DNA of 56,661 nt. Origin: a virus. Made by a program: the position numbers and the translations under genes. Under the pieces are notes generated by a model. That model was not told the DNA's origin and ran no database searches. It saw only the letters and a program-made list of their open reading frames with translations. Positions 7,857 to 50,956 of this stretch are shown in pieces (the first letter of the stretch is position 1; each line of letters opens with the position of its first letter). The stretch is taken from the IMG/VR virus record IMGVR_UViG_3300010354_000109, positions 1 through 56,661 of that record; one strand, given 5' to 3'.

Positions 7857-7886
7857 TCATATATGGTGTTTAATTATGAGGTTAAA

Positions 7887-8663
7887 ATGAGTGAACCATC
7901 AAATCAGCCTTTACAAATGCGTCAAATTTTTGGTGTTCCTATTTTTAGGAAAAAATTTGATCTACATGATGCTTTTAAAGAACAAGCATTAGTGTATTTA
8001 AAAGATAAAGAAAACTTTAGAAAATATACTTCTAGACCTAGTTTACTTTTTACATCTTCAAATTTACATAAAGAAGAAGTTTTTAAACCATACTCAGAAT
8101 TTTTTATTAATTCACTTAAAGAAGTAATGGAATCAATTGGATTTGAACCTGATATTGCTTTAACGGGTATGTGGGGTACGGTGCATCCTAATAACGGATA
8201 TCACCACAGACATACACATTATAATTCATTTCTAGCTGGGGTATTTTATTTTGATGGTAATGAACAATGCGCAGGTACTACATTTTTTAACACTAACGTT
8301 CAACACAATATTATTGTGCCAAAGTTAAAAGATAGAAGACCTCATGCAAGTATGATAGAGTATACAGTGCCGTTTGAAGAAGGCACGTTAGTTATATTCC
8401 CTGCATGGTTACCTCATCATACAGCTCATAATAACTTAAGCAGAACTAATTCTTATAGAAAGATATTATCATTTAATTCAATGCCTGTGGGTGCAACAAA
8501 CAATGATTTATTTGATAGATATAGTTATTCAGATGTAAGTAATAATGAAGATCTTCCTGTTACGTTGGATCATCTATTAGGAAGAGAAAATTATAATAAT
8601 TGGGGCTTGATAGATAATGAGCCGTATTTTACAGAACAAAAAACAAAGGAAGAGGGGCAGTGA
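7887..8663 (+). CDS. 2OG-Fe(II) oxygenase (TIGR02466-like), 258 aa
   Basis: A non-haem iron, 2-oxoglutarate-dependent oxygenase by motif. The N-terminus has IFGVPIF. The proximal ligand region reads MWGTVHPNNGYHHRHTHYNS (residues about 95-114), followed by the LAGVFYFDG strand, then ALPHH-type distal histidine in FPAWLPHHTAHNN (about 171-183) and the 2OG-binding arginine in YRKILSFN (R191). The start at 7887 is chosen because GAGG precedes it by 5 bases; an in-frame ATG at 7863 lacks a ribosome-binding site. It is a lone plus-strand gene between minus-strand units and ends inside a terminator hairpin. The substrate is unknown; phage members are proposed to modify protein or nucleic acid. Confidence 0.82.
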   Translation: MSEPSNQPLQMRQIFGVPIFRKKFDLHDAFKEQALVYLKDKENFRKYTSRPSLLFTSSNLHKEEVFKPYSEFFINSLKEVMESIGFEPDIALTGMWGTVHPNNGYHHRHTHYNSFLAGVFYFDGNEQCAGTTFFNTNVQHNIIVPKLKDRRPHASMIEYTVPFEEGTLVIFPAWLPHHTAHNNLSRTNSYRKILSFNSMPVGATNNDLFDRYSYSDVSNNEDLPVTLDHLLGRENYNNWGLIDNEPYFTEQKTKEEGQ

Positions 8664-30222: not shown

Positions 30223-31048
30223 TAGGGAAGTCCTCTATAGTAACTATAAAGTCCCAATTATCTTCTTCATCAATTTGAGTATAAGAAACTGTTTCAGTAA
30301 TATCAGTAGTAGGATTACCGTTAGCGGTTAACCCTGGCTGTATAGTTACTCTTGATGCGACTTCATTAGTATAATCACCAGTATATGGCTTTTTGTATTC
30401 TGGTGTATAAAAATTAACTTTAGAGATTTTAATAAGCTTCGCCTCATTAACAGGACCATAGAAATAGCATTTCATAGTAAATTTAAGAGTGTATATTATT
30501 GCTCTTCTAGTAGTAAATGCTGCATCATAGGTATCTTGCGCAGTTACGCTATTTAAAACTAAAGGTATATCTGTTACATCATCAAAATCTTCTAGTAATT
30601 TTGCTGTTACTGTCCATTCAGGAGTAAAATAAGGAAGAATTTGCTCTACAATTTTAGTAGCATCTTCATTAGTTTTAGTTAAAATAGACATAGTAAAATT
30701 AAGATCATAAGGTACTGGATTATAAACTCTTTTATAAACACTATTACCATTTAAATTGTTTTTAGATACTTTTTTACCTATTGTATTTAATTTTCTGTCA
30801 GGAGCATATCTAAGATTTTCTATTTCAAATCCTATACGAGGTAGAATAGTACTAACTTGTGAGATAGCTGTTGGGTTATCATCCACGCGAGCAAGAAACT
30901 TATCTCTAGGACCATAAGCTATTGGAACTAAAATAGTTTGTTTAGACCCATTTTGTAAAGTTCTATCTATTTTAATATTATTAAATAATGTACCAAATAT
31001 AATAATATATTTTCTAAAAAGTTGATGATAAAAAGGAGCTGATAGCAT
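30209..31048 (-). CDS. 15: Tail sheath stabilizer/completion protein gp15
   Basis: Caps the end of the contractile tail and joins it to the head. 279 residues (T4: 272). Diagnostic segment: VPIAYGPRDKFLARVDD, then STILPRIGFEIENLRYAPDR and KLNTIGKK; also NPVPYDLNFTMSILTKTNED and EQILPYFTPEWTV. Starts 1 base into the gp14 stop codon, so translation is coupled. Confidence 0.94.
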   Translation of the reverse strand: MLSAPFYHQLFRKYIIIFGTLFNNIKIDRTLQNGSKQTILVPIAYGPRDKFLARVDDNPTAISQVSTILPRIGFEIENLRYAPDRKLNTIGKKVSKNNLNGNSVYKRVYNPVPYDLNFTMSILTKTNEDATKIVEQILPYFTPEWTVTAKLLEDFDDVTDIPLVLNSVTAQDTYDAAFTTRRAIIYTLKFTMKCYFYGPVNEAKLIKISKVNFYTPEYKKPYTGDYTNEVASRVTIQPGLTANGNPTTDITETVSYTQIDEEDNWDFIVTIEDFPNANT

Positions 31049-31776
31049 TATGTTCTACGCCCTTCTGAGAACGGATCTATTTCTGTAAAGTCTACAAAAT
31101 TAGCGGCTTCGCTTTCAAAATATTCATTTTCAGCATTTGCTTGATCAACTTCTGAAGCTTTAAATTCTTCTAATGTTAAGAATATACCATTCTCTGTAGC
31201 AAGCTCATTACCGTTTTCAGCTAATAGTATATAATCATTAGTAACCATGCTATAAGCATTATAAAGATTGTCAATGGTTGGTATACCTGTATTAAATATT
31301 TCACTTGAATATTCAAACAATTCTACAGTCATTTCATAAACTTGTAGTGCACCTAATTGATAAAATACAGGTTTCTTATTAACAAATTTAATCTGATAAA
31401 GAGCTTGAGTTAATGGAAACCAAACTAAATCACCTTCAAAAGGTCTTGCTTTATTAGTAAGAGAGGTTATTTCTTGATCGAATGATCTCTGGGAAATAAC
31501 AAATTGAAGTTGATCTCTTACTTCCAAACCAAATTTAGATAAGAATTCACCCTCACCCATTAAATCATTAGCACTCTTTAAATACATTTCTATACTAATA
31601 CCAGTACCAAATGAATATGTTTCACCTTCTCTAAAAACATTATCTTTATTAATAGTAGTTCTAGGAATATAGTACATGTCTATACCGTAGATTTTGATTG
31701 CTTCTACAATCAAATCTTCGATTAAATTTTGCTCATTACTAGCACCTATATTATTAAAGTATTGTGAGGTTGCCAT
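31048..31776 (-). CDS. 14: Neck protein gp14
   Basis: Head-completion/neck protein; 242 residues (T4: 256). MATSQYFNNIGASNEQNLIE, EAIKIYGIDMYYIPRTTINK, DNVFREGETYSFG, then VWFPLTQALYQIKFVNKKPV and FYQLGALQVYEMTVELFEYS, all typical of T4-like gp14. Starts 1 base into the stop of gp13. Confidence 0.93.
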   Translation of the reverse strand: MATSQYFNNIGASNEQNLIEDLIVEAIKIYGIDMYYIPRTTINKDNVFREGETYSFGTGISIEMYLKSANDLMGEGEFLSKFGLEVRDQLQFVISQRSFDQEITSLTNKARPFEGDLVWFPLTQALYQIKFVNKKPVFYQLGALQVYEMTVELFEYSSEIFNTGIPTIDNLYNAYSMVTNDYILLAENGNELATENGIFLTLEEFKASEVDQANAENEYFESEAANFVDFTEIDPFSEGRRT

Positions 31777-32759
31777 TACCCTATCATATCCATAACTGGT
31801 AGACTATAAGACCTAATCATTTCAGCTTCTAACTTTTCTATCTCACGTTGAGCATCAACGTAAATTTTATCACCATTGAACGTAACTCCGCCAGGCATTT
31901 GAATACCAGAGAATTTAGAAAGGTTCATACCCCATTGTCGTTTAATAAGCTGCGCAGTATATGTTTGAAGCCATCTGTCAGACCACACATCCGGAAATTC
32001 TAATGGATCTACGACTTGATAAGCTTCTACAATTAAATAGTTACCTACTGCAATTTTATTCCAGTTAACATCAACATATAATCTATTAGTATGTCTATTG
32101 TATCTAATAGGCTGCTTACCAACTAAAAGTTGCTCTAATAATTGAATGTGCTGGAATGCTTGGTAATATGGTACCATAGATTGATATACTAAAGTATACA
32201 AGTCGTTTAAAGCTATTTGGTATCTAATATTAAAGATATTATTTGTATTAATATAATCGCCTATATCGTAAATATTAATAGCACCAATAATATTGTCAGG
32301 TAAACGAACATAGCCTCCTACATAGCCTCTAAGATCTGCACCTACACCGGTTGCAGAAGTAATTGAGATAGTAGGATCTTTTCTGTATTTTGTTCCGTTA
32401 TTTGTTATGGTAGCTGAAGTGATGACTCCATTGGCATTAGTAGTAATTGTAGCAGTAGCACCAGCGCCGTCTACATCTCCAGCACCGTTAGTTATAACTA
32501 CTACATCTGAATTAGCATACCCAGAGCCACCATCAACTACGTTGATTTCTGAAATACTACCTGGTAAATTACTTTCAGTAAAAACATGCTTATAAAATAC
32601 TTTAGAAGTACCATCAAAGTGATAATCCATATAATATTTTAATGCTTCATCGATGCGATCTTCTACTTGATCGTCATCAACATTAATCTCGATTACTGGT
32701 TTACCTAATTTTCTTAAGCAGTATTCTTTAAATTCTGCTCTGGTTCTTGGAACTGCCAT
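31776..32759 (-). CDS. 13: Neck protein gp13, with inserted beta-rich domain
   Basis: Portal-proximal neck protein. MAVPRTRAEFKEYCLRKLGK and PVIEINVDDDQVEDRIDEAL then YMDYHFDGTSKVFYKH match T4-like gp13, and VRLPDNIIGAINIYDI with QLLEQLLVGKQPIRYNRHTN and ADRWLQTYTAQLIKRQWG-type residues continue it. Between them, residues about 65-149 are an insertion: a G-S-G-Y...I-T-N-G-A-G...G-A-T-A-T-I...G-V-I-T-S-A-T-I...K-Y-R-K-D-P-T-I-S-I repeat of the kind found in virion adhesion proteins. Late box CATAAATA lies 22 bases upstream. Confidence 0.93.
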   Translation of the reverse strand: MAVPRTRAEFKEYCLRKLGKPVIEINVDDDQVEDRIDEALKYYMDYHFDGTSKVFYKHVFTESNLPGSISEINVVDGGSGYANSDVVVITNGAGDVDGAGATATITTNANGVITSATITNNGTKYRKDPTISITSATGVGADLRGYVGGYVRLPDNIIGAINIYDIGDYINTNNIFNIRYQIALNDLYTLVYQSMVPYYQAFQHIQLLEQLLVGKQPIRYNRHTNRLYVDVNWNKIAVGNYLIVEAYQVVDPLEFPDVWSDRWLQTYTAQLIKRQWGMNLSKFSGIQMPGGVTFNGDKIYVDAQREIEKLEAEMIRSYSLPVMDMIG

Positions 32760-38576: not shown

Positions 38577-38906
38577 TTAATAAGTTGCTCGTGGAGTTAC
38601 TGTAACAATACCTTCTTTCACACGAGTAACTGTGCCAGTATTACTGGTAGCTACCACATCATATACATATCGTCCAGCAGTAAGATTAGCTGTAGAATTA
38701 GCTGTTAAAGAGAGAGTAATGACACCTGAACTATTACCTGAAGCAGTAAAAGACGTAGCATTTGTAGAAGTATAATGTTTGCGAATCTTTGCAGTAATAG
38801 AACTATCAGTTAGATTCATAACATTATTGCTGCTATCATAGGCAATAATAGAGGTATTTGAATAAGTTGCGCCTTGATCGATTACAAGATTTAATTTAGT
38901 TGCCAT
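38577..38906 (-). CDS. Small beta-sandwich structural protein, 109 aa
   Basis: MATKLNLVIDQGATYSNTSI, then NLTDSSITAKIRKHY, SGVITLSLTANSTANLTAGR and YVYDVVATSNTGTVTRVKEG. Pattern of an Ig-like/BppU-N-type baseplate module common next to fibre genes in marine myoviruses. It has its own perfect late promoter (38927-38934), which supports a virion function. Confidence 0.7.
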   Translation of the reverse strand: MATKLNLVIDQGATYSNTSIIAYDSSNNVMNLTDSSITAKIRKHYTSTNATSFTASGNSSGVITLSLTANSTANLTAGRYVYDVVATSNTGTVTRVKEGIVTVTPRATY

Positions 38907-38926
38907 GGTTTTCTCTCGTTTATTAT

Positions 38927-38934
38927 TATTTATA
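38927..38934 (-). promoter_or_regulatory. Late promoter box TATAAATA
   Basis: Perfect TATAAATA on the minus strand, 20 bases before the ATG of the 109-residue structural gene, overlapping the end of the methyltransferase-like gene. Confidence 0.72.
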
Positions 38935-39709
38935 AAACCACATCAGACGGTTTCTTAAAAATAACCATGTATCTCTCGAAATTAGACATTTCAAGCTTAC
39001 CAGTATAATAGATATTATCGCCGCCAACTTTAAGGCTTTCTCTGATAAAATGAGAGAAAGTATTTAAATTCTCAAAGCAACCTACGTGCTCTTGAATTTT
39101 ATCGTAATTATTTGTTTGCAAAACAACTGTAACAGCATCTGGTATCTTTTTATACCAAGCTAAAAATTCATCTCTGCTAAGATGCTCACAGCTTGTATTA
39201 ATAACAATATTAGGTCTAAACGGGTATTCATAATCTATCATATCTGCAATTATATGTTGATAATACATACTTTTATTATTAAATCTTCTTGCAGGCTCAT
39301 AAAGAGCTTGATTTTTATCAATATTATAAATATATTTGGTGGTAATATCAGTATCATGCTGTAGCATATATGCTAAGATTCCATACCAGCCTCCAAAAAT
39401 AAAAATATTATTTTTATGAGTTTTAAGAATATATTTTTTAAGTTTATCAGTTAACCACTTTTTACTTTTAGTCTGGTTATCATGAAAAAGATCGCTAAAA
39501 TCTATATTGAACATTTTACATATTTCAAGCCATTCAATAAGCATCTCTGATTTAAAAAGATGAGTATGTTCAAGATCAAAGCATTTTAAAGCTATCTTAG
39601 TACTAGATACACTAGGTAATAAATTAGCATTAATTTTCAACCACTCGTGAGTGGTATATTTTTCGTTTTTTAATTTTAAACATTCAATAGCATAATTTAA
39701 ATCATTCAT
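38930..39709 (-). CDS. Class I SAM-methyltransferase-like protein, 259 aa
   Basis: The central part looks like a Rossmann SAM-binding fold: NNIFIFGGWYGILAYMLQ (about 100-117, glycine loop FGGWYG), then strand 2 with YIYNIDKNQ (acidic D131), and IVINTSCEHLSRDEFLAWYK, where NTSCEH replaces the usual D-P-P-Y-type motif IV. The N-terminal 95 residues are helical and unrelated to the core. The ATG at 39709 is chosen; the reading further up starts at TTG. The gene is divergent from, and shares start-codon bases with, the plus-strand glycosyltransferase. First gene of an island of transfer enzymes; a small-molecule or sugar methyltransferase is the best guess. Confidence 0.66.
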   Translation of the reverse strand: MNDLNYAIECLKLKNEKYTTHEWLKINANLLPSVSSTKIALKCFDLEHTHLFKSEMLIEWLEICKMFNIDFSDLFHDNQTKSKKWLTDKLKKYILKTHKNNIFIFGGWYGILAYMLQHDTDITTKYIYNIDKNQALYEPARRFNNKSMYYQHIIADMIDYEYPFRPNIVINTSCEHLSRDEFLAWYKKIPDAVTVVLQTNNYDKIQEHVGCFENLNTFSHFIRESLKVGGDNIYYTGKLEMSNFERYMVIFKKPSDVVL

Positions 39710-40316
39710 GTATAGAATCTTCTCTGTTCTAGTCAAACCAAAATATAATGTTAGTCACGTTTTAAGACTTTATGATCAATGTAGAAAGCATTGTACTAAA
39801 GATTTTGAATTTATTTTAATAACTGATAGAAATATAGAATTACCAAATATTAAATGTTATAATTTTTCTGAATATCAATTAGATACTTGGTGGAATAAAA
39901 TGTTAATATTTCATCCTAATTTTTTTGGTGAATATATTAATATATATTTTGACTTAGATACTGATATTAGAAAAAACTTTGATGATATGTTTGATCAAAT
40001 TGAAGATAATATTTTAGTAGTTGATGCTTGGTGGAAAAATGAGAGATATTTTCAACAATCAGTAAAAATACAAAACCCAGATTCTTTCTTAAGTAAGGGT
40101 AATACTAGCATTATGGGATGGAAAGGTGATAAGACTTGGCTCTGGCATTTCTTTGAAAAGGATATAGAAACTCATGTCACTAAGCATTTTGGGGATGATA
40201 CTTTCATTAATAAGTATGGTAATGTTGGTTACTTTAAAAATAACATTACGCTATCGTATGCAGCCAATAAAGATACAAAAATCGCAATCAATCACAAAGC
40301 CGTGTTTGTACCATAA
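39708..40316 (+). CDS. Glycosyltransferase-like protein (GT-A fold), 202 aa
   Basis: MYRIFSVLVKPKYNVSHVLR then LYDQCRKHCTKDFEFILITD is the nucleotide-binding start. A D-x-D-type metal site lies in YFDLDTDI (residues 80-87), followed by WWKNERYFQQ and NTSIMGWKGD. It aligns by pattern with the 239-residue minus-strand protein at 40848-41567, so both belong to one family. The only plus-strand gene in the right half. No ribosome-binding site is visible before the ATG, and the gene starts within the start codon of the divergent methyltransferase gene. Confidence 0.7.
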   Translation: MYRIFSVLVKPKYNVSHVLRLYDQCRKHCTKDFEFILITDRNIELPNIKCYNFSEYQLDTWWNKMLIFHPNFFGEYINIYFDLDTDIRKNFDDMFDQIEDNILVVDAWWKNERYFQQSVKIQNPDSFLSKGNTSIMGWKGDKTWLWHFFEKDIETHVTKHFGDDTFINKYGNVGYFKNNITLSYAANKDTKIAINHKAVFVP

Positions 40317-40873
40317 GCCATATAACATTGACTATTAAAAGACACTTTAAAATTCTCTACATTATTTAAATTGCAATCTTCTGCAAAAGTATAATCATTT
40401 TTTATTCTATAATTATTGAAATTGTGTTGCATATTAATATGGTTTACTGCAACTACGTTTTTGCAATTTTTATAATAGCTAAGCATTTTAAGAGGTACTA
40501 GATATTCTGTATTAGGAAATATTACTAAATCAGAATCTATTACATATTCATTTAAATCATCAAAAAGCGGTCTCTTAATAATAACTTTACTATTAAGATG
40601 TTGTCCGTGTTTTTGAAGCATAGGGTGATAATCTATAACTGTAATATTATCTACTCCTAACGAATTTAAAAACATAATATAATTAATAGGAAACCTACTT
40701 CCTATTATGGTTACACTATCTAAATTTTCAAAATAGTCAAGAATAAATCTTGAAATAAAAAATTCTTTTTTAACTATTTCTTTATTTCGTAATTCACTAA
40801 AAGCTGGGCTATCATTGCCTAGCTTATTATGAATATTAAAAATTTTTTCAGTTAAAATTTCGCCAGTATTCAT
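40292..40873 (-). CDS. Rossmann-fold protein, methyltransferase-like, 193 aa
   Basis: SVTIIGSRFPINYIMFLNSL then GVDNITVIDYHPMLQK is a glycine-poor Rossmann nucleotide-binding unit with acidic D after strand 2, followed by DSDLVIFPNTEYLVPLKMLS, a motif-IV-like N-T-E-Y. Such proteins in phages are annotated as SAM-dependent methyltransferases. The ATG at 40873 is preferred; an in-frame ATG at 40894 would extend the overlap with the upstream gene. The 3' end overlaps that of the plus-strand glycosyltransferase by 25 bases. Confidence 0.6.
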   Translation of the reverse strand: MNTGEILTEKIFNIHNKLGNDSPAFSELRNKEIVKKEFFISRFILDYFENLDSVTIIGSRFPINYIMFLNSLGVDNITVIDYHPMLQKHGQHLNSKVIIKRPLFDDLNEYVIDSDLVIFPNTEYLVPLKMLSYYKNCKNVVAVNHINMQHNFNNYRIKNDYTFAEDCNLNNVENFKVSFNSQCYMAYGTNTAL

Positions 40874-41567
40874 TTGCCCAATCTTTAGTATCATGTAATT
40901 CTACACCTCTATTATGAGAAGTGTTGAATAAAGCTATACTATATTCATCTCTCTTTTTATATGGTTCTAAATCATCAGGATATTCAGCACCAAAACTATA
41001 AGCATATACTATTTTACGAGGATGAAATTTTAAATTTTCATAATTTGTATAGTAAATAAATTTGTCTAAACTATGAATTTTATATTCTATTATATCTTTG
41101 TGTTTTTGATAATAATCATATAAAAATTTAAATTGATCTTTGTCCCATGTAACAAAACTACTATTAATTATACATGTACCTACATGATAATACATGTTAA
41201 TATTGTCTTCTGGTGTCCAGTAGTTTTTTATTATTCTTGGTTCTAAAAATTTATATTCATTAAAATATAAATTTAAATCTTTAAGAACTAATATATCTAA
41301 GTCTAACAACACAAATGGCCCCTCAAATGGAATATTTGAAGGGTTAAATAGGTGTAGTTTTTGTAAAGTAAATACGTTTGATTGCTTATAGTTTATATCG
41401 TCAAATGATAGACATTTAACTTCATCTATAATATCTTTTGTATCATCTGTAATACAATAAAATTCAAAATTACCAGTAAACGTTTTTTTAATACTATTAT
41501 AAAGTCTGTTAACGTAATAAGCAGGATACTTAGTACCCCATTTAAATACTATAAATTTAACCAGCAT
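40848..41567 (-). CDS. Glycosyltransferase (GT-A fold), 239 aa
   Basis: KWGTKYPAYYVNRLYNSIKK, then FEFYCITDD, a D-x-D motif in FVLLDLDILVL (residues 85-95), a MYYHVGTCIINSS acceptor-loop segment, and a C-terminal ALFNTSHNRGVELHDTKDWA followed by NEYW. The layout is that of small phage GT-A enzymes that use nucleotide-sugar donors and a divalent metal. Overlaps the neighbours at both ends (10 and 26 bases), as part of a tight operon. Confidence 0.78.
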   Translation of the reverse strand: MLVKFIVFKWGTKYPAYYVNRLYNSIKKTFTGNFEFYCITDDTKDIIDEVKCLSFDDINYKQSNVFTLQKLHLFNPSNIPFEGPFVLLDLDILVLKDLNLYFNEYKFLEPRIIKNYWTPEDNINMYYHVGTCIINSSFVTWDKDQFKFLYDYYQKHKDIIEYKIHSLDKFIYYTNYENLKFHPRKIVYAYSFGAEYPDDLEPYKKRDEYSIALFNTSHNRGVELHDTKDWANEYWRNFN

Positions 41568-42198
41568 ATTCTATATCAGCTACCATATCATTCCATATAT
41601 TCTTATCGTATACTACATAACTAAATGTAATTCTAGGCGTTCTAGTTCTTGCACAATGCCAATAAATTTTATCTTGTTCTTTAGCTGAACCAAAATACCC
41701 TACCTTAACATTCCAGTTCTTTTCATCTTTAAAAACATTTAGTTTATTGTTAATATGATCATAGTGTTCAAACTCACCATCACCTTCAGGGTTACAAGAT
41801 AAAACTATGTTGTAACCAGATGCATTGCAATTGTTATGCCAGCCGATATAACCACCAGCAGGATAATACATCTGAAGAGCATTATTTCTAGCACCGAAAA
41901 ACTCCATTAATGCATCGTTAGCTTCTTTAGCTTTGCGTACAAACTTAGTAGGTACAACACCTACACCATTCATCATCTCTACACCACAAGTAGATTTAGG
42001 GTAGCCATATTCTTCTGGTGTGTTTAATGCTTTCTTTAAATAATCTAAAGATGTAGTTCCATCTTTATCACCTATTCTTTTTCTAGCATCTGGTGTTAAG
42101 TGCTCTTCTAACTCTTTAAGATCTTGATTAAAAAACCATAAGCTAAAATTATCTAAAATCTGTCGCAATTCCGGGTGGTTTAATGATACAACTTTCAT
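41557..42198 (-). CDS. 2OG-Fe(II) oxygenase-like jelly-roll protein, 213 aa
   Basis: The core reads MYYPAGGYIGWHNNCNASGY, NIVLSCNPEGDGEFEHYD, then VKVGYFGSAKEQDKIYWHCA and RTRTPRITFSYVVYDK. This is the double-stranded beta-helix family seen in marine T4-like phages: first ligand W-H-N-N, distal His in Y-W-H-C-A, and basic R-x-x-x-R-I-T-F. The usual H-x-D is H-x-N here, so metal binding could be altered. The start at 42198 is supported by AAGGAG 8 bases upstream. Confidence 0.66.
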   Translation of the reverse strand: MKVVSLNHPELRQILDNFSLWFFNQDLKELEEHLTPDARKRIGDKDGTTSLDYLKKALNTPEEYGYPKSTCGVEMMNGVGVVPTKFVRKAKEANDALMEFFGARNNALQMYYPAGGYIGWHNNCNASGYNIVLSCNPEGDGEFEHYDHINNKLNVFKDEKNWNVKVGYFGSAKEQDKIYWHCARTRTPRITFSYVVYDKNIWNDMVADIEYAG

Positions 42199-42916
42199 CG
42201 GAATGACTCCTTGGTATAGTATAATGGTAAATGACTGGTTCAATATCTCTATATGGCTCGTTTTTAGGATTGCTTGTATCCTCGAGCAAGTAAATATAGT
42301 TCCATTTTAAATTACCGTTGTCAATAAATCCACTTTTAATATCTTTATATTTGTCTACTTTATGTAAAAGATACCACATAGTAAATTGATCCCATGGTTG
42401 CATGAGATTGCTATAATCTTTAAACTGTGATAAATGCCATTTGCTAGAAATCTGTTCTAGATATAATTCGTACCAGTCATTAATAAGACTAATTGTAAGC
42501 GGTTTATTATTATATAAAATAACACCGCCATGATATTCTAACTGATTATCTTCATCTACTTTTCTAGATTTACTAACATGTGAAACTATAGGTGAAAATT
42601 TAATATCGCTACCATCATTTAGGAATTCAAATACGTTAGAAATTTCTGAACTATAAATTTCAGTATCACAGTCTAAATATAAAGTATTATCATAAGGCGT
42701 TCTTGCAATGCCATACATCTTAGCTCTAATATGAACAGGTATATTTGTAATTATTTTATCAAAAAAAACTCTATCTGACTCATCTACAAATTCTTCATGA
42801 GTAAATAAAGTAATTTTTGCTTCTGGATAATTATCTTTTAGAGAAATAGCAGATCTTACTGCCGCTTTATAATAAGCTTTACTAAGTGATGCCACATATA
42901 CATAACCATTATTCAT
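42149..42916 (-). CDS. Glycosyltransferase (GT8-like), 255 aa
   Basis: MNNGYVYVASLSKAYYKAAV then RSAISLKDNYPEAKITLFTH begins the nucleotide-binding half; the D-x-D metal site is D82-C-D84 in TLYLDCDTEIY. Later YHGGVILYNNK, QPWDQFTMWYLL and YHYTIPRSH follow the GT8 order (acceptor loop, W-D-Q, terminal histidine). The gene overlaps the downstream oxygenase-like gene by 50 bases. Donor and acceptor unknown. Confidence 0.8.
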   Translation of the reverse strand: MNNGYVYVASLSKAYYKAAVRSAISLKDNYPEAKITLFTHEEFVDESDRVFFDKIITNIPVHIRAKMYGIARTPYDNTLYLDCDTEIYSSEISNVFEFLNDGSDIKFSPIVSHVSKSRKVDEDNQLEYHGGVILYNNKPLTISLINDWYELYLEQISSKWHLSQFKDYSNLMQPWDQFTMWYLLHKVDKYKDIKSGFIDNGNLKWNYIYLLEDTSNPKNEPYRDIEPVIYHYTIPRSHSDESCIIKPPGIATDFR

Positions 42917-42917
42917 T

Positions 42918-43349
42918 TTAGCTCACTTTGGTTTTATTAAATTCTTCTTGATATAGAATCGTAGCTACGATTTGCGCTTCAAGCACGTTCTTAGCTCTAC
43001 GTAACTTGTTTTTTAACTCTCTATTAGTAGAGTTTTTAATATAATCGATTTCAAATGCTTCAGCTTTAATATTAAAAAGTTTTTCTTTCAAATGCTTATC
43101 AACATTTAATTTATATTCTTCAAATTTTTGAAGCTTTATTCTCTCAGTAATATTGAAATTTTTTCTAGTATTTTCATCAATATGTTCTTCTGTATATTTA
43201 CTAGTAACAAGATCCCAATCAGGGTTCTGACCTGGTTCAGATCTTGTAATAATACAAGTAAATTTACCTTTTTCGTTTATTAAATTACAAATAACTTGAT
43301 TTTTATCATCGTCAACCCATAAGGGGTTTTCTATTTTTCGCTCGTCCAT
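42918..43349 (-). CDS. Conserved hypothetical protein, 143 aa
   Basis: MDERKIENPLWVDDDKNQVI then CNLINEKGKFTCIITRSEPG is a beta N-terminal half; the rest is helical (RKNFNITERIKLQKFEEYKL; LRRAKNVLEAQIVATILYQE). Such two-part proteins lie beside fibre genes in marine T4-like phages and may be fibre chaperones or baseplate parts. GAGG ribosome-binding site. Function unknown. Confidence 0.66.
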   Translation of the reverse strand: MDERKIENPLWVDDDKNQVICNLINEKGKFTCIITRSEPGQNPDWDLVTSKYTEEHIDENTRKNFNITERIKLQKFEEYKLNVDKHLKEKLFNIKAEAFEIDYIKNSTNRELKNKLRRAKNVLEAQIVATILYQEEFNKTKVS

Positions 43350-43375: not shown

Positions 43376-44488
43376 TTAAGCAATGCGCAAAAACAAAGAC
43401 CTATAACTTATAGCTGATGTTGCAGTTTGTACAGTGCTACCAGAGAAAGTGGTGCTGTATGATCCTGTGTATGTACCAGAAAATGCTTGTGAATAGTTAC
43501 CAGAGAATGTGCCTGTATAAGCACCAGTATAATTACCTGAATAGTTACCTGTATATGCTTTTGTAGGTGCACCTGCAAACCCTGAATAATAAGTAGGCCC
43601 TGTATAGTTACCTGAATAGGTGCCAGTATAAGTACCAGAAAATGCTTTTGAATAGTTACCAGTAAATGTGCCTGTGTAACCACCTGTATAGTTACCTGAA
43701 TAGTTTGATGTGTAACCTATAGAAGCAAAATTACGTCTATCATCCGAAAAAGTAAGTCCTACTTGAATCCATGTACCTGGTGTAGGTGCAACTGGTGCAG
43801 CCCCCGCTACTAAATCATATGTGCCTATACCCGTACTAACTATTTGATTTCTAAGTCTATCAACTAAATCATTTATTTCTGCATCTGTCATCTCTTTAAG
43901 AGAATCTGGTGTAGTAGTAGTATCATTTTTAAGCGGTCTTACAGTAGCAGGAATAGACGCAGCTGCTGTTTTTCTCCATAGGTAAATAGTATTTTGTGTA
44001 GTGCTTATATCTGTATTATCTGAAATTGTTGCTTTAGCTGTCCATGTGCCGCCAGCTGGAGCAGTAGTACTAAAATAGTATGAGCCTATTCCTTGGTTTA
44101 CAAGATTAGCTAATGCTCTAGCAATAATAGTTGTATTTAATTCTGTATCTTGTTCTTTTAAAGAATCAGGTGTAGTAGATGTATTAACAAAAAGTGGTTT
44201 GATAAACGTTTCTGCAGCAACTTGAAGGTCTTGATAGAAATTATAAGCAGCAGTATATACTGTAGTAGTAGGATGAGTTCCTACTGGATCAGTATAAGTA
44301 TCATTAAAAGTACCTATTAAAGTTAACCCAGTTGTAGATGCAGGGTTAACTTGAACTGTACCTACACCTGTATCACTTGAAGCAAATGTTGTTAAAATGC
44401 GATGAACAATATAGTCCATCTCAGCATCTGTCATTTGCTTTATAGAGTCTGGTGTAGTTGTTGTATCTACTTTAATAGGGTTTGTCAT
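43376..44488 (-). CDS. Virion fibre/adhesion protein with tetrapeptide repeats, 370 aa
   Basis: The N-terminal 240 residues contain three copies of a unit beginning with T/S-T-T-P-D-S-I/L-K-x-x-T-D-A-E and a helix (about residues 8-35, 107-135, 191-218), each followed by a beta segment (e.g. GIGTYDLVAGAAP). Residues 258-350 consist of Y/F-T/S-G-x tetrapeptides (YTGNYSGNYTGAYTGTFSGN). The last 20 residues are hydrophobic-aromatic (SYRSLFLRIA). Repeats, T/S/Y richness and position between two fibre genes indicate a fibre or whisker-like component; no T4 equivalent. Confidence 0.72.
   Translation of the reverse strand: MTNPIKVDTTTTPDSIKQMTDAEMDYIVHRILTTFASSDTGVGTVQVNPASTTGLTLIGTFNDTYTDPVGTHPTTTVYTAAYNFYQDLQVAAETFIKPLFVNTSTTPDSLKEQDTELNTTIIARALANLVNQGIGSYYFSTTAPAGGTWTAKATISDNTDISTTQNTIYLWRKTAAASIPATVRPLKNDTTTTPDSLKEMTDAEINDLVDRLRNQIVSTGIGTYDLVAGAAPVAPTPGTWIQVGLTFSDDRRNFASIGYTSNYSGNYTGGYTGTFTGNYSKAFSGTYTGTYSGNYTGPTYYSGFAGAPTKAYTGNYSGNYTGAYTGTFSGNYSQAFSGTYTGSYSTTFSGSTVQTATSAISYRSLFLRIA
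43439..43717 (-). repeat. Y/F-T/S-G tetrapeptide repeat tract
   Basis: About 20 consecutive four-residue units with an aromatic at position 1 and glycine at position 3, broken once by a PTYYSGFAGAPTK spacer. The two halves (each about 40 residues) are themselves near duplicates. Confidence 0.85.
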
Positions 44489-44505: not shown

Positions 44506-47500
44506 TTATGGGAATAATTGCGCACCTGCAGAGCTAAACACTCTAAGAGGAACACCTACTGTATATGTTGTACCACCTGTAGTATATGAGAATCCACTTG
44601 CGTTTATAGTAGAGAACACTGAAGAGTTACCTGTAAACATCGATGTACTATTAGCAGATGTATTTACAGATGTGTTACCTAGATAAAAACTGCCTACACC
44701 GATAAATGTATTTACTGTTGAGTTTGCTAATGTAATTGTAGTAGCATTAGCAGCAACGTTAGCGGTAGTAGTACCAAAGTACATAGACCCAATATTTATC
44801 TGTGTGTTAACTGTAGCGTTTGCAACCCTAATAACTGAGTTATTTACTACTGCATTCTGAGTAGAAGAGCCTACAAAGAATGTTGTTGTATTTACTACCG
44901 CATTAACTGTAGTTGTTCCAACATACAAACTTGATGATGTTAAAATAGCGTTTGAAGTACTATTCTGTATTTCTAATGTAGTTGCAGATAGATCTGCGTT
45001 AACTGAAGAATTACCAATGAAATGCACTGTTGTATTAACGACTGCATTTGCTGAAGTGTTGCCTACGTAGAAGGTACCTATACCAGTTACTGAAGCAATT
45101 GTTGTATTCTGTACAGCTAATGATGAGCTGGTAGCTGAAACGTTAACAGTAGCATTTGCTATACTTAATGTAGAGCTGGTTATATTAACGTTCGCAGTAG
45201 AATTTGATACTGCATATGTTGTAGGTGTTACAGCTGTATTAACTGTAGAATTACCAACGAATACTGTTGATGTATTTACTACAGCATTAGCTGTTGTATT
45301 ACCTACGTATAAGCTACCAGTTGCAAGAACAGAATTAGTAGTAGCATTAGATATTGTAAGTACTGAGCTTGTCTGTGTAGCATTTACAGATGAGTTACCT
45401 ACAAAGAGTGCAGTTGTATTAACTACAGCATTTGCTACAGTATTACCTACGTATAAGCTACCTGTTGCTAGAACGGAGTTTACAGTAGCATTTGATATTG
45501 TAAGAACAGAGCTAGTAAGCGCTGCGTTAACAATAGAGTTACCTGTGCCTATTGTAGTAGCGTTAGTAACTGCACCTTGTGTAGCAGAACCGTAAGTACC
45601 TACTGTGTAGGAAGTGGCATTTATTGAAGTAGCGTTTACTGATGCTGCATTAATAGTACCAGTATGATATAATCCTAAATTATTTGCAAGTAAAAAGTTT
45701 GCAGAAGCGTTACTTAACGCTAAAGATGTAACATTAACAACTGCATTACCTGTAGTATTTGCTAGAATTAACTGAGGTACGTTAGTTGACGTGGTGTTAC
45801 CTGCTTTGAAACCACCAGATGTTACGTTTACAGAAGCAACTGATGAGTTGCCTGTAAATGTAAGTACAGTAGAGTTAGCATAGAATCCAAAAGTTGAGTT
45901 ACCTGCTTTATATGCTACAGCGTTTACTTGAGCATTGCCTATTTCTAGACCTTCTGGTGCTAATGTATAGATATCGTTTACACCAGTAGAACGCGGTAAA
46001 TTAAATGTAACGTAACCATTAGCTACTCCTGCTACGTTAGCGCTTGTTTCTACATAGGTGTTACTATTTTTAATCTGAATAAGTGTACCGTTAGAACCAA
46101 TCTGTGCTACGAAGTCTAGATTAGATAGAGTAGTGGTACCTAATCTTAAACTGTCCATCTTAACAATACCGCCAACGTCGATTGCGACGCTGGTGTTAAC
46201 AGACGCGATAGCTACGTTTACACCGATTCTCTTGTTTAATGCATCAACTACGAAACCATCAGTACCAAATGTAGCATTACCAGTTTGAGTAAATATACCA
46301 CTATCAAGTACTGAATTAGCAGAAGAATTGCCTACATGTAATCTGGAACCATTAAGTGCTAGATTACCGGCAGTAAGAACTGAGTTTACTGTACCGTTAC
46401 CTATAAACAATGTAGTGGTGTTAGCTGTTACGTTAGCACCTATTGTTATAACACCGCTCTGAATATTAACGTTAGCAGCTGTTGCACCAACTTGAATTGC
46501 TGAGGTATTAACTGAGGTATTTGCACCTACAGTGATTGAGCCTTGTGCAACTATTGTATTAGAAGTTGTATTACCTACAAAGTAGGAAGTATTATTTGCA
46601 ATTACGTTTGCACCTACTGCAACAGATCCTGATTGAACTGTTACGTTAGCGGCAGTTGCACCCACTCTAATTACAGAAGTGTTTACCGAGGTGTTAGCGC
46701 CTACCGTAATTGACTCTGATTGAATAATAGAGTTTACAGTTGTGTTACCCACAAAATATGCTGATGCATTTACTGAGGTATTAGCTCCTACTGTTAGTCC
46801 AGCTTGTTGCATTACTGAATTTAGAGTAGAGTTACCTACAAAGTAAGCTGATGCATTAACGCTAGTATTTGAACCAATTGTTAGCAATGCAGATGTTACT
46901 ATAGAATTAATAGTTGTGTTACCTACAAACAACGCAGTAGTATTAGCGCTTACATTAGCACCTACTGCTACTGAGCCAGATTGTACTGTAACGTTAGCTG
47001 CTGTAGCACCTATTCTAATCGCAGAAGTATTAGCAGATGTATTAGCACCTATAGTAATTGATTCTGCTTGTACTATAGAGTTAACTGTAGAGTTTCCTAC
47101 AAAATAAGCGGATGTATTAACGCTAGTATTTGAACCTACTGAAATAGAGGCACTAGTGATTTGAGTATTAACAACAGTATTACCCACTCTGAACGCTGTG
47201 CTATTAGATGCAGCATTTGATATAGAATTACCAACAGTAATATTAGTATTGGTTATTGTAGAGTTGCCTACATCAACCTCGAATGCTAAAATAGTATTTG
47301 AAACATATAGGTGAGAGGCTACTATTGTGTTAGCGCTTGGTTGAATTGTAACTACGTTAGCATCAAATGTAACATTTGAGTGAGTAGTGTTACCTTGCAC
47401 GGTTATATTAGTGAAGGTAGCATTAGAACCAATATTAGTATTACCTATAATTGCAACGTTACTAGTTACTGTTGTTTTTGTTGCAGTCACATTAACGTTT

Positions 47501-47997
47501 GTAGTTGTAGTATTACCTACTATAGTTACTGTAGTGCTAGTTGCATTTCCATTGAATGCAGTATTACCAGTAAATGTAGATGTTGAGTTAACAGCTAATG
47601 TAGTTGTATTAACTGACATTAACGGTCCAGAAACTCTAGTATTTGAAGTAGGGTTGATAATTACTACGTTACCAGTCATGGTAGCCGTATATGATGCAGC
47701 AGACCCGTTAGCAGTTATTACTAGAACGTTTCCAGATAATGGATCAACATATGTATTAGAAAGTAGAGCTAAGTTAGCTTCTGTGGTATTATTACCACCT
47801 CGAAGACCTACTGATAAGGAGAGCGTATTTGTAGTAAAATAACCGTTAACAGCTACGTTACCGGTAGTTAAAGAACCACCGGTAGTAAAATCCGCAGTAA
47901 CTGCATTAGAAGATATAATATTAGCTATTTGATTAGTACGCTCTAACCAAGTACCAAATGTTTGGGTATTACTAACTTGCGATAGTGAAATAGTCAT
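44506..47997 (-). CDS. Giant repeat tail fibre protein, 1163 aa
   Basis: N-terminus MTISLSQVSNTQTFGTWLER then TNQIANIISSNAVTADFTT is a fibre attachment-type start. The shaft is almost wholly repeats: first 29-residue units of type V-G-N-x-T-V-N-S-I-V...I-x-V-G-A-N-T-S-V-N-x-S-x-x, a non-repeat block near residues 570-690 (NKRIGVNVAIASVNTSVAID), then about 18 units of exactly 16 residues (V-G-N-x-T-x-N-x-x-x-x-x-x-x-x-F/Y). One YHTGTINAAS block is shared with the 1288-residue fibre. It ends VPLRVFSSAGAQLFP. N, T, S, V and A dominate; charged residues are nearly absent. Probably a trimeric beta-solenoid or beta-spiral rod. Confidence 0.86.
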   Translation of the reverse strand: MTISLSQVSNTQTFGTWLERTNQIANIISSNAVTADFTTGGSLTTGNVAVNGYFTTNTLSLSVGLRGGNNTTEANLALLSNTYVDPLSGNVLVITANGSAASYTATMTGNVVIINPTSNTRVSGPLMSVNTTTLAVNSTSTFTGNTAFNGNATSTTVTIVGNTTTTNVNVTATKTTVTSNVAIIGNTNIGSNATFTNITVQGNTTHSNVTFDANVVTIQPSANTIVASHLYVSNTILAFEVDVGNSTITNTNITVGNSISNAASNSTAFRVGNTVVNTQITSASISVGSNTSVNTSAYFVGNSTVNSIVQAESITIGANTSANTSAIRIGATAANVTVQSGSVAVGANVSANTTALFVGNTTINSIVTSALLTIGSNTSVNASAYFVGNSTLNSVMQQAGLTVGANTSVNASAYFVGNTTVNSIIQSESITVGANTSVNTSVIRVGATAANVTVQSGSVAVGANVIANNTSYFVGNTTSNTIVAQGSITVGANTSVNTSAIQVGATAANVNIQSGVITIGANVTANTTTLFIGNGTVNSVLTAGNLALNGSRLHVGNSSANSVLDSGIFTQTGNATFGTDGFVVDALNKRIGVNVAIASVNTSVAIDVGGIVKMDSLRLGTTTLSNLDFVAQIGSNGTLIQIKNSNTYVETSANVAGVANGYVTFNLPRSTGVNDIYTLAPEGLEIGNAQVNAVAYKAGNSTFGFYANSTVLTFTGNSSVASVNVTSGGFKAGNTTSTNVPQLILANTTGNAVVNVTSLALSNASANFLLANNLGLYHTGTINAASVNATSINATSYTVGTYGSATQGAVTNATTIGTGNSIVNAALTSSVLTISNATVNSVLATGSLYVGNTVANAVVNTTALFVGNSSVNATQTSSVLTISNATTNSVLATGSLYVGNTTANAVVNTSTVFVGNSTVNTAVTPTTYAVSNSTANVNITSSTLSIANATVNVSATSSSLAVQNTTIASVTGIGTFYVGNTSANAVVNTTVHFIGNSSVNADLSATTLEIQNSTSNAILTSSSLYVGTTTVNAVVNTTTFFVGSSTQNAVVNNSVIRVANATVNTQINIGSMYFGTTTANVAANATTITLANSTVNTFIGVGSFYLGNTSVNTSANSTSMFTGNSSVFSTINASGFSYTTGGTTYTVGVPLRVFSSAGAQLFP
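44600..45550 (-). repeat. 16-residue (48-bp) repeat array in the 1163-aa fibre
   Basis: Consecutive units such as VGNTVANAVVNTTALF, VGNSSVNATQTSSVLT, ISNATTNSVLATGSLY and VGNTTANAVVNTSTVF keep an exact 16-residue register for about 18 units without indels. Confidence 0.88.
46375..47225 (-). repeat. 29-residue (87-bp) repeat array in the 1163-aa fibre
   Basis: Units of 16+13 residues, for example VGNSTVNSIVQAESIT followed by IGANTSANTSAIR, about nine in register. The 16-residue part is the same motif as in the C-terminal array. Confidence 0.85.
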
Positions 47998-48245
47998 TTA
48001 CTAGTATTCTCCAGCAATTTGTAAAGCAATGATTTGATTTCCTCTAAATCTTGCCTTACTTGTTTTTGCTCTATTTTTATATTTTCTTGTTCTGTGGACA
48101 ATAATCTAATATTATTAAGGTTTTTTCGCGCTTCTTTATATTTATTAAGCGCATCACTATCACTATTAATTATACCCTTAGAATATGTATCACGGTAAAG
48201 ATAACTGTGATCTTCTACTCTTTTTAATTTTATGTCTGGAGACAT
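47994..48245 (-). CDS. Coiled-coil hypothetical protein, 83 aa
   Basis: MSPDIKLKRVEDHSYLYRDT then a helix to the end, with heptads in NLNNIRLLSTEQENIKIEQK and QVRQDLEEIKSLLYKLLEN. Overlaps the fibre start by 4 bases (ATGA) and the 908-residue gene by 16, so it is coupled to both. A short N-terminal segment with a long coiled coil could be a connector or chaperone for the fibre (inference). Confidence 0.66.
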   Translation of the reverse strand: MSPDIKLKRVEDHSYLYRDTYSKGIINSDSDALNKYKEARKNLNNIRLLSTEQENIKIEQKQVRQDLEEIKSLLYKLLENTSK

Positions 48246-50956
48246 AATGCTCTCATATCATCTGCTCTTGGTACAACATACATATTTTCTGTAACTGGTA
48301 CAATCTTGATTGCAAAAGTCTTATATGTTGAATAAATCTTATCATTATTAGTTGAATAAGTAAGCGAATTAGCAACTGCAGGGTCTGGATTTACGAAAAC
48401 AAACGCACTATCTTTACTTTCAACATTATCTAAAGTTCCAATCCATACGTTAGATGAAAACGCAAATGAAGTTGTAGAATCTAATTGCAGTTGAGTACCG
48501 TTGGGAATACTAGTAAGCTTTCTAACATTTAGAGCTGCTTTATCACCATCATAGATATAAATGTAAGTGTTAGCCGTAAATCCGGCTACTGAAGGTGTTG
48601 TAATTGTATTACCTGAAATTGAAGAACCAGCAGTATTAGCAATTATATTGTTGCTTACAGGAACTTTATATTCCAATTCAATAAAGTTGCTAGAATCAGT
48701 AGCACTTGAATAGAATGTATTTGAAGATATTCTATTAAGTCTCGACCAAGCTTTTTTATTAATACTTTGAGTATCAATAGCGCTTAAGAATCTACCATAA
48801 ACATAAAAATCAGTGCCTGGCGGTCTATACGCTGTAATATAAACTTGATGATCTTCTGCGTCTTGGCCATCAGCTAGCTTAACTGGTCTAGTAATATATC
48901 TAGATACTTTAATACCATTACCTTTATTTTCATTAAACTCTTGTATAGATACAATGTTAGCGGTTGTACCAGAAGTCTGTCCAGTGATTGATTCACCTTG
49001 CGCAATACTTGAAATATTTGCAGATGAAGTAGAAGTAGCACCTACTATGTTAGCTGTAGTAACAAATGTGCCAAAAGTATTTACTAATTGAACTACTGTT
49101 GAGTTGCTTGCAAGAACTACACCGGTTGCAGTATTTACTGATGCTACTGATTGATACACAAGCTCACCATTAGTGAATGCGCCTGTATTAGCAGTTATAG
49201 ATACGTTTGCTTTTAATATAATATCAGCTGTTGTGCCATATAATGCTAGCGCGGTATCACTAGAGTTGTGAATAGCATATCCGTAGATTGATGTATTGCT
49301 ATCTAGTTCAACACCTTCATTATATGTGAAAGTATTTGAAGAGTTAGCAAGCGTTAACCAGTATCCTCTTAAAGATGCACTATTAGCAGTAATGTTTCTA
49401 ATAGCAATTAAATCCATACTTTCTTTTGCAAAGTATGGAGAAATTTTAGGATCATCTGTTGCTAGACTTACTTCCATCATAAAAGAAGAGTTACCTTGTC
49501 TTCCAACTGCTAGATCAAATGAGTTAGATCTACTTTGCATTATTCTTGAGTAATCATTAAACTCAAAAGTTTGACCTGGGGTAATATCAATATAAGTAGC
49601 ATCAGCAGTAAATGAGTTATCTGCTTTAAATCCTTTGAATGCTAAATCGAAAGAAGTTTTTGATGGTACAATAGGTTTAAAGTCAGCACTTATAGCATCA
49701 TAAGGTAAGTCTATTACTTTTTTTAGTACATAGTGAATACCAGTTCTTAACCCAATAAGTCTATTTCCAATAGTATCGTTAAAGTTTTGTGTAGAATTAG
49801 CAGATGATGCGGAACCAAAAAGTAATTTATCACCGCTAGTAGCATCTACTCTATTATTATCAACATTGTTAAGTCTTATTCTTAAAGCGGTAGGCATGCT
49901 ACCACCTTTAACTTGACCTATGGTACCTGCGTTAGTAGAAAAGTTAAATGAGCGAGCTAGTGTAAGTGTACTTGCTGCAGAATTAATAGAAACTACGTTT
50001 GCAACAAACCCATATGGTGTTGCGGCTGTATTACTATGAATAATATAAATTAGGTTATTTGTTGATCCATTAGAGAATAAACTAGTATCTGGTACTAAAA
50101 TAGTATTATTAGGAGTAGAGTTAGTTCCGTATGTAATAACGTTTTGCGACACAGATGTAATAGTAGCATATGCTGATGAAGTAGCACCGGTAATAGTATT
50201 ACTTACAATAAATTCCCCGGTAGTGTTCTGCACTTTTACCATGGTAGAATTAGAGAAATAAAGAATACCGGTAGCAGTATTAGCAGAACCGTTTGATTGA
50301 TAAACTAGCTCACCGTTGGACCAGGTACCAGTAGCTGATGAGAACGAAATTTTTGCTGCTTTAATATCACCGTTACCAGCTACTACGAATTCAGCCCCCT
50401 CAAAAGTAGCAGAAGGATTTTTTACTAAAAGGTATTCAATATTAGGTTCTCTAACTATAATAGTACCAGAGCCTTCAAATTGCGCTCTAAAAATTTCAAA
50501 TTTAATATCTTCTTCTTGAACTGCTGTCCATGAAATATCATTAGAAGAAATAAAGAGAGTTCCTATTTCATTATTTTTTTGAATAGGTTTTGCAGCATCA
50601 GTAGATATATCTTTCTCACCTAGCTTAGCTGTCCATATCTCGTATTCTGGGCTGCCGTTATCAGGAATAAGTACAAACGCGTACACCTCACCAGATTTAA
50701 CAAAAACAGGTGAGTCAAAAGAAAAATCAGTATATGCACTAGCGTCAGAACTGACATTTATATCAGCTGCTTCTTTTTGTACTTTACTAAACGGGACAAT
50801 CCTTCTAGTAGGTTCACCATTATCACATTCTCTAAGCTGAAGCGCTATACCTTTATTAGTATCTTTAGATTTAAAATATAGTCTTATCTTAGTTAGAAAA
50901 ATACCTTCTACTTCTAGATCATTTATAGAAAATGTTTGTCCAATTGGTTTAGCCAT
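48230..50956 (-). CDS. Baseplate/fibre structural protein, 908 aa
   Basis: N-terminus AKPIGQTFSINDLEVEGIFL then TKIRLYFKSKDTNKGIALQL and YAFVLIPDNGSPEYEIWTAK is a jelly-roll-like domain common in marine T4-like baseplate proteins. Two inserted copies of a module NGELVYQ...NTATG-I/V...SNST-x-V-x-L/V (residues 214-270 and about 590-650) occur. Between them is QTFEFNDYSRIMQSRSNSFD, and near the C-terminus YITAYRPPGTDFYVYGRFLS and KTFAIKIVPVTENMYVVPRA. In T4 this locus holds genes 9-12; this protein probably fills part of that role. A weak late-like box AATAAATA lies 26-33 bases before the ATG. Confidence 0.76.
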   Translation of the reverse strand: MAKPIGQTFSINDLEVEGIFLTKIRLYFKSKDTNKGIALQLRECDNGEPTRRIVPFSKVQKEAADINVSSDASAYTDFSFDSPVFVKSGEVYAFVLIPDNGSPEYEIWTAKLGEKDISTDAAKPIQKNNEIGTLFISSNDISWTAVQEEDIKFEIFRAQFEGSGTIIVREPNIEYLLVKNPSATFEGAEFVVAGNGDIKAAKISFSSATGTWSNGELVYQSNGSANTATGILYFSNSTMVKVQNTTGEFIVSNTITGATSSAYATITSVSQNVITYGTNSTPNNTILVPDTSLFSNGSTNNLIYIIHSNTAATPYGFVANVVSINSAASTLTLARSFNFSTNAGTIGQVKGGSMPTALRIRLNNVDNNRVDATSGDKLLFGSASSANSTQNFNDTIGNRLIGLRTGIHYVLKKVIDLPYDAISADFKPIVPSKTSFDLAFKGFKADNSFTADATYIDITPGQTFEFNDYSRIMQSRSNSFDLAVGRQGNSSFMMEVSLATDDPKISPYFAKESMDLIAIRNITANSASLRGYWLTLANSSNTFTYNEGVELDSNTSIYGYAIHNSSDTALALYGTTADIILKANVSITANTGAFTNGELVYQSVASVNTATGVVLASNSTVVQLVNTFGTFVTTANIVGATSTSSANISSIAQGESITGQTSGTTANIVSIQEFNENKGNGIKVSRYITRPVKLADGQDAEDHQVYITAYRPPGTDFYVYGRFLSAIDTQSINKKAWSRLNRISSNTFYSSATDSSNFIELEYKVPVSNNIIANTAGSSISGNTITTPSVAGFTANTYIYIYDGDKAALNVRKLTSIPNGTQLQLDSTTSFAFSSNVWIGTLDNVESKDSAFVFVNPDPAVANSLTYSTNNDKIYSTYKTFAIKIVPVTENMYVVPRADDMRALCLQT

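Follow-up and report, generated by a model that had tools for sequence, protein, structure and literature searches.

Here, the locus at positions 38930-42916 of a virus record from IMG/VR (IMGVR_UViG_3300010354_000109, 56.7 kb, hereafter the window, i.e., the whole stretch of 56,661 nucleotides) was analyzed, which carries six genes for glycosyltransferase-like, oxygenase and methyltransferase-like proteins. Two of them, encoding the glycosyltransferase GT1 and the oxygenase OX, form with a repeat-rich fibre gene (YTG fibre) and a small partner gene (CHAP) a core of constant order, whereas the remaining genes GT2, MTa, GT3 and MTb are variable cargo in a fixed slot between OX and the tail fibre assembly gene LFA. 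We propose, with about even confidence, that a modification module tied to the fibre is encoded here, within the host recognition cluster of a T4-like virus, with OX hydroxylating and GT1 glycosylating the adjacent YTG fibre and the cargo extending the glycan. The features in question are the following:

43376-44488, minus strand: YTG fibre, proposed substrate, with tetrad repeats of the form [YF][TS]G
42918-43349, minus strand: CHAP, small fibre-partner or chaperone-like protein, always precedes GT1
42149-42916, minus strand: GT1, core glycosyltransferase, GT-A type by motif, with invariant D82-x-D84, directly before OX
41557-42198, minus strand: OX, core 2-oxoglutarate-type oxygenase with H121-x-N123...H181 and R189
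38907-41556, no strand: cargo slot, the OX-LFA interval, defined from interval lengths in 53 complete loci
40848-41567, minus strand: GT2, cargo glycosyltransferase with a D-L-D motif
40292-40894, minus strand: MTa, cargo protein also found in the slots of close relatives, Rossmann-like as judged by reading only
39708-40316, plus strand: GT3, cargo glycosyltransferase with a D-L-D motif, inverted relative to its neighbours
38930-39736, minus strand: MTb, cargo, probable class I methyltransferase; a TTG start is listed, an ATG at 39709 is likelier
38577-38906, minus strand: LFA, homologue of the L-shaped tail fibre assembly protein, far edge of the cargo slot
2259-3017, minus strand: nucleotide-sugar epimerase (phrog_540 at 1e-43, PF01370 at 4e-19), possible supplier of a donor sugar

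IMG/VR was scanned with OX and GT1, yielding about 100 distinct copies of each, where distinct denotes, here and below, different sequences and not independent evolutionary events. In nearly all relatives the order is repeat-rich YTG fibre, CHAP, GT1, OX, slot and LFA. Of 93 distinct GT1 copies for which enough sequence was available, 91 are directly followed by OX and, seen from the other side, GT1 directly precedes OX in 88 of the 98 distinct OX copies that could be judged in the same way. Since these loci had been fetched by GT1 or OX in the first place, CHAP was used as bait for an independent test, and all 60 distinct CHAP loci that extended far enough downstream contained both GT1 and OX; many contigs in this set recur from the earlier scans. 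Thus, the linkage to fibre genes that the initial annotation had raised for the whole cassette holds for GT1 and OX in essentially every relative, while the other four genes are optional; its view of the six genes as one unit had to be abandoned, as core pair and cargo are distributed differently.

In a phage collection of 50,697 records, the YTG fibre, CHAP and GT1 each matched only the circular Phage C48C1 (OQ984149, Kyanoviridae), which is the nearest named genome for the six-gene locus, and OX matched C48C1 and, weakly and partially, one further record. In Stenotrophomonas phage DLP_6 an LFA-like gene directly follows a fibre that by eye resembles the start of window positions 44506-47997, and no YTG fibre, CHAP, GT1 or OX was found at this fibre-LFA junction. 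Given the matches to C48C1 and the absence from DLP_6, the fibre-CHAP-GT1-OX block appears to behave as one module, either complete or missing altogether. Moreover, the pairwise distances of GT1, OX, CHAP and LFA in 68 loci correlate at 0.86-0.95, with the highest value for GT1 and CHAP, and this congruence with the neighbouring genes fits a long vertical inheritance of the core. A cellular origin of OX was also considered: its sole match in genome_contigs is a 6.5 kb contig (CALPIE020000128.1, L165) binned as Bifidobacterium breve. As this contig carries YTG-CHAP-GT1-OX and, on the opposite strand, genes of GT-like and MTb-like type, it is probably a mis-binned phage contig, and the candidate was rejected.

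The H-x-N jelly-roll oxygenase named in the initial annotation was upheld by structure prediction. The AlphaFold2 model of OX (predicted local distance difference test, pLDDT, 94.6) displays a double-stranded beta-helix fold, and the top matches of a Foldseek search against the PDB were PHD2, P4H of P. putida, the prolyl hydroxylase of PBCV-1 and AlkB at E-values of 7e-5 to 1e-3. The Foldseek probabilities for the prolyl hydroxylases were 0.98-1.0, but template modelling (TM) scores were 0.3-0.4 and identities about 10%. With regard to topology, H121 closes the second core strand, H181 and R189 lie in the last two strands, and the spacing of 60 between the histidines is like that of PHD2, in which H313 and H374 are the iron histidines. 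These prolyl hydroxylases are the nearest solved folds to OX and carry H-x-D, whereas in OX an asparagine (N123) stands at the position of the acid ligand and the H-x-D/E iron triad is absent. The H-x-N motif was seen in 100 of 100 distinct OX members (WHNN in 83, WHTN in 8, WHHN in 5, WHDN in 2 and other forms in 2). Part of this uniformity could be due to search selection since the scan pattern contained the motif; a second, independent scan pattern was also used, and loci fetched with GT1 as bait show the same motif. The distal histidine is invariant, as is R189 eight residues past H181, which by its position only is assigned as the putative 2-oxoglutarate-binding basic residue.

Assignment of OX to a described oxygenase family was attempted and rejected: no Pfam family matched consistently among 46 members, and no sequence match was found in the PDB. 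AspH is an active 2-oxoglutarate hydroxylase without an acidic iron ligand, in which iron is held by two histidines and water (PMC13168262). The missing acidic ligand is common to AspH and OX; however, the AspH family PF05118 was not matched by any of the 46 OX members at E 0.1. OX may hydroxylate, halogenate or be inactive.

The three D-x-D glycosyltransferase-like proteins of the initial annotation were confirmed in so far as the D-x-D is invariant in the alignments of GT1, GT2 and GT3 each. In profile searches, support for the three is weak, though consistent. The GT1 of the window did not give a profile match itself, and some of its relatives match PF03407 (best 3e-7), GT2 or GT8 families. 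Grouping GT1 with GT2 and GT3 in one profile family was rejected, as hhalign comparison of the shallow alignments gave only a 21-column match around the D-x-D.

The fibre gene upstream of this pair encodes a protein of about 320 to more than 3,000 residues in different relatives, built of proline-poor tetrads of the type [NDE..][YF][TSVA][GR]. In 79 YTG homologues, some truncated and a few nearly without the motif, the median density of [YF][TS]G was 22 per 1000 residues, compared to a median background of 1.7 per 1000 residues in all open frames of at least 400 residues. Profile searches detected no known domain in the YTG fibre, and the repeats do not follow the collagen-type Gly-X-Y pattern. 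Genes for an oxygenase and a glycosyltransferase thus lie close to the gene of a repetitive structural protein. The fibre CDS0201 of C48C1 (L007:31012-41055) comprises 3,347 residues and consists largely of aromatic/hydroxyl tetrad repeats, likewise with no known domain.

OX has a second home in these genomes. Among the 100 distinct copies, 87 have GT1 directly upstream, 7 follow a tail-tube gene, 4 lie elsewhere and 2 are cut off. The tail-tube copies sit directly after a phrog_45 gene and before uvsY and form one clade with support of 100/99 (loci L067, L062, L059, L060, L064, L074, L078, L080 and L082, and L005:18267-18920 of C48C1). C48C1 holds one OX of each kind and a third copy near dnaB/nifU. 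Since both main homes of OX adjoin virion genes, we infer that a virion substrate is favoured.

The six open reading frames themselves are all present at 38930-42916 as annotated initially, and because homologues at the same locus were found in relatives for five of them, and a few distant ones for MTb, they are genes and not chance open reading frames. Their short overlaps were likewise recovered, namely 50 bp between GT1 and OX (with the OX ATG at 42198), followed by 11, 47, 25 and 2-29 bp. The run had been described as back to back, which is true of order and overlaps; GT3, however, lies on the plus strand, tail-to-tail with MTa and head-to-head with MTb, an inversion that recurs in relatives and was not stated earlier. 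Similarly, the flank on the low-coordinate side had been given as the baseplate, GH19 and PAAR genes, but the immediate neighbour is LFA, ahead of GH19 and PAAR.

The OX-LFA interval measured 70-168 bp in 35 of 53 distinct complete loci, in which the slot is empty, 720-837 bp in 3 and 3.6-9.7 kb in 15. The loci of 720-837 bp have one added gene, GT-like where homology was detected. In the clade of the window, the cargo is rich in glycosyltransferases, and GT2, inverted GT3 and MTa recur. GT3 matches the PHROG glycosyltransferase family phrog_1962 at 7e-9 and GT2 at 6e-4, and both weakly match glycogenin-like PDB chains. Of the two Rossmann or methyltransferase-like proteins of the initial annotation, MTb is a plausible class I methyltransferase, with the conserved pattern G-x-W-x-G ... 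D ... S-C-E and one relative matching Spermine_synth at 1e-4, while MTa is loosely Rossmann-like and gave no convincing profile or PDB match. MTb is almost private to the window; its distant relatives in L166 and pelagiphage Mosig lie in the fibre cluster, close to a homologue of the window epimerase. This proximity lends modest and indirect support to the earlier suggestion that the epimerase supplies a donor sugar.

Elsewhere, the cargo includes APS-kinase-like and cytidylyltransferase-like genes, a sodium:solute symporter, a TctC receptor, radical SAM, fatty-acid desaturase and ketoacyl synthase. The transporter genes (symporter and TctC receptor) are found in the slots of L009 (16138-18399) and L028 (14509-15480), with the APS-kinase-like and cytidylyltransferase-like genes, and radical SAM, desaturase and ketoacyl synthase in those of L030 (12641-17082), L031 and L036, which recalls the lipid genes reported for SAR11 phages from freshwater. 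In one sub-lineage (L032, L035, L044, L047, L057 and L071), the slot is filled by a single gene of 1,336-1,795 residues.

Of the proposed modification module, the parts observed are the order and linkage of the genes, the OX fold, the motifs in OX and GT1 and the fixed slot. The proposal draws in particular on the constant fibre-CHAP-GT1-OX order and the 60/60 CHAP loci, the absence of the whole block from DLP_6, the proximity of the OX fold to prolyl hydroxylases and AlkB, and the second home of OX, which again follows a virion gene. The substrate, the chemistry, the order of the steps and the joint action of the cargo are what we infer. Following this, OX, as an enzyme of the 2-oxoglutarate type with a His-x-Asn...His site, would most likely hydroxylate residues of the fibre repeats; GT1 would then attach a sugar at the OX-modified residue or at a neighbouring Tyr, Thr, Ser or Asn, and the lineage-specific enzymes of the slot (here GT2, MTa, GT3 and MTb) would extend or cap the glycan.

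Several observations weigh against this proposal. The repeats hold little proline, and a direct analogy to prolyl hydroxylases consequently fails. The YTG homologues of L034, L042, L058 and L140 have few or no motifs, yet GT1 and OX are kept. With an invariant asparagine in its iron site, OX could have changed or lost its activity, and the tail-tube copies of OX occur without a glycosyltransferase partner. Furthermore, gene neighbourhood alone cannot tell a fibre substrate from shared late expression. A more far-reaching version, which we put forward tentatively and consider possible, is that OX founds a new family of His-x-Asn...His oxygenases that act on the aromatic/hydroxyl tetrads of fibres and, in the paralogous clade, on the tail-tube protein, making acceptors for GT1. 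T4-like viruses of aquatic habitats would then widely possess a phage equivalent of the hydroxylation and glycosylation of collagen.

Capsid, portal, terminase and tail genes mark the window as T4-like; the major capsid protein is nearest to that of DLP_6 (72%), followed by those of Methylophilales phage Melnitz and the pelagiphages Mosig and HTVC008M (63-64%). Window positions 50981-55486 and 48230-50956 match VrlC of Mosig, and 31048-31776 and 31776-32759 match its neck proteins. The locus consequently lies between VrlC and the gp14 neck gene, i.e., where the pelagimyophage host recognition cluster is found and, as in that cluster, glycosyltransferases are interspersed with fibre genes and synteny is poor. 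This cluster was described to hold fibres, GT8-type glycosyltransferases and radical SAM, with fabF and desaturase in freshwater members, and was read by its authors as serving modification of the host O-chain (Zaragoza-Solas et al., 2020, PMC7029224).

The main rival to fibre modification is a late remodelling of the host surface (O-chain, other envelope glycans or lipids) that excludes competing phages or keeps progeny from attaching to debris, the fibre locus being the place where host-interaction genes collect. We consider it rather unlikely. It is the published reading of the GT8-type glycosyltransferases in the pelagimyophage cluster (PMC7029224), and the desaturase, ketoacyl synthase, symporter, APS-kinase-like and cytidylyltransferase-like cargo is easier to reconcile with the chemistry of lipids or the envelope than with that of fibres. 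However, host-surface remodelling leaves unaccounted for both the constant tie of GT1 and OX to the fibre partner CHAP and the second home of OX at the tail-tube gene, and it matches the variable cargo better than the core. The joint function suggested in the initial annotation, either fibre decoration or a change of host glycans, is partly supported, and of these two candidate roles virion decoration is favoured. It is improbable, although in keeping with the different distributions of core and cargo and with cargo types ranging from glycosyltransferases to transporters and lipid enzymes, that function is split, with GT1 and OX acting on the fibre and the cargo merely sharing the slot while acting on host surface glycans or metabolism. 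Against such a split, genes for glycosyltransferases and methyltransferase-like proteins dominate the cargo in the clade of the window and are found together repeatedly, in keeping with a single glycan pathway.

Hydroxylation of a base followed by addition of a sugar is the known logic of hypermodified phage DNA, and AlkB is among the fold matches of OX. That OX and GT1 are such a nucleic acid modification pair is nonetheless very improbable: the best fold matches are protein hydroxylases, no Pfam nucleic acid oxygenase matched OX, and the genes lie in a late structural block beside the fibre and not with replication genes. Hardly credible, too, is a recent, separately acquired foreign island (moron) with a function not tied to the fibre, for which the lower GC content of five of the six genes (0.24-0.30, versus 0.35-0.38 in the flanking fibres) and the nearly private MTb might speak, since GC at third codon positions (GC3) is normal for the genome and GT1 and OX are old and conserved across divergent viruses, which already contradicts it for the core pair. 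The AT-rich character of the genes noted initially was borne out (GC 0.24-0.34 for all six), and it is due to amino acid content, with F, Y, M, I, N and K making up 36-46% of residues; separate acquisition does not follow from it, as GC3 of 0.15-0.24 falls within the genome range of 0.11-0.32. Foreign origin of the core pair by composition was rejected on these grounds; recent acquisition from a foreign source finds no support in the case of the core and is possible for MTb.

Since the locus falls in the published cluster, fibre-linked glycosyltransferases are not new. The two have in common the position, fibres mixed with several glycosyltransferases and other enzymes, and highly variable content, and the cargo of L030 is reminiscent of those freshwater members that carry fabF and desaturase. 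By contrast, the fibre-CHAP-GT1-OX unit is not described there (PMC7029224), and profile searches found neither OX nor GT1 in Mosig. In the open-licence literature, to which our search was directed, no description of this unit, the H-x-N family or the fixed slot was found, and neither was a report of an H-x-N facial triad, a paper on Phage C48C1 or anything on point regarding phage fibre glycosylation. The unit and the H-x-N family appear to be undescribed; the locus as such belongs to a type of phage island already known, within which the core module is unexpectedly strict.

For mimivirus L230, an initial annotation as a lipopolysaccharide (LPS) enzyme was superseded when its hydroxylation and glucosylation of viral collagen were demonstrated (PMC9546862). 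There, as would be the case here judging from the genes, virus-encoded oxygenase and glycosyltransferase activities modify a repetitive protein of the virus; L230 differs in its collagen Gly-X-Y substrate, its use of one bifunctional enzyme for both steps and its canonical iron site. It may serve, by analogy and not as evidence of homology, as a precedent for virion modification and a warning on LPS annotations. In mycobacteriophages, glycosyltransferases are thought to decorate the phage's own virion (Maravista note, PMC11256854). The likeness is in phage-encoded glycosyltransferases with a proposed target on their own virion; the difference, drawn from description and not from sequence, is the lack of a fibre-specific linkage. 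To our knowledge, no oxygenase partner is known in that system.

If fibre modification is correct, many aquatic T4-like viruses would modify their own receptor-binding fibres with dedicated enzymes encoded beside the fibre gene, and host range and adsorption would have to be deduced differently from fibre sequences. It would also suggest that, in marine phages, part of the genes annotated as LPS-modifying in fact serve virion modification, and enzymologists would gain an oxygenase family that is interesting for the invariant asparagine of its iron site.

Two further observations were made in the window. A separate oxygenase gene (7863-8663, plus strand) neighbours the tail-tube gene but is encoded on the other strand; at 22-26% identity, its product matches a number of Mosig proteins that carry a 2OG-Fe(II) oxygenase annotation. 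Furthermore, the tail sheath gene (25250-28135) encodes 961 residues, of which residues 352-443, in the middle, resemble part of the large VrlC-like gene in L009, which gives the impression of an inserted or shared domain.

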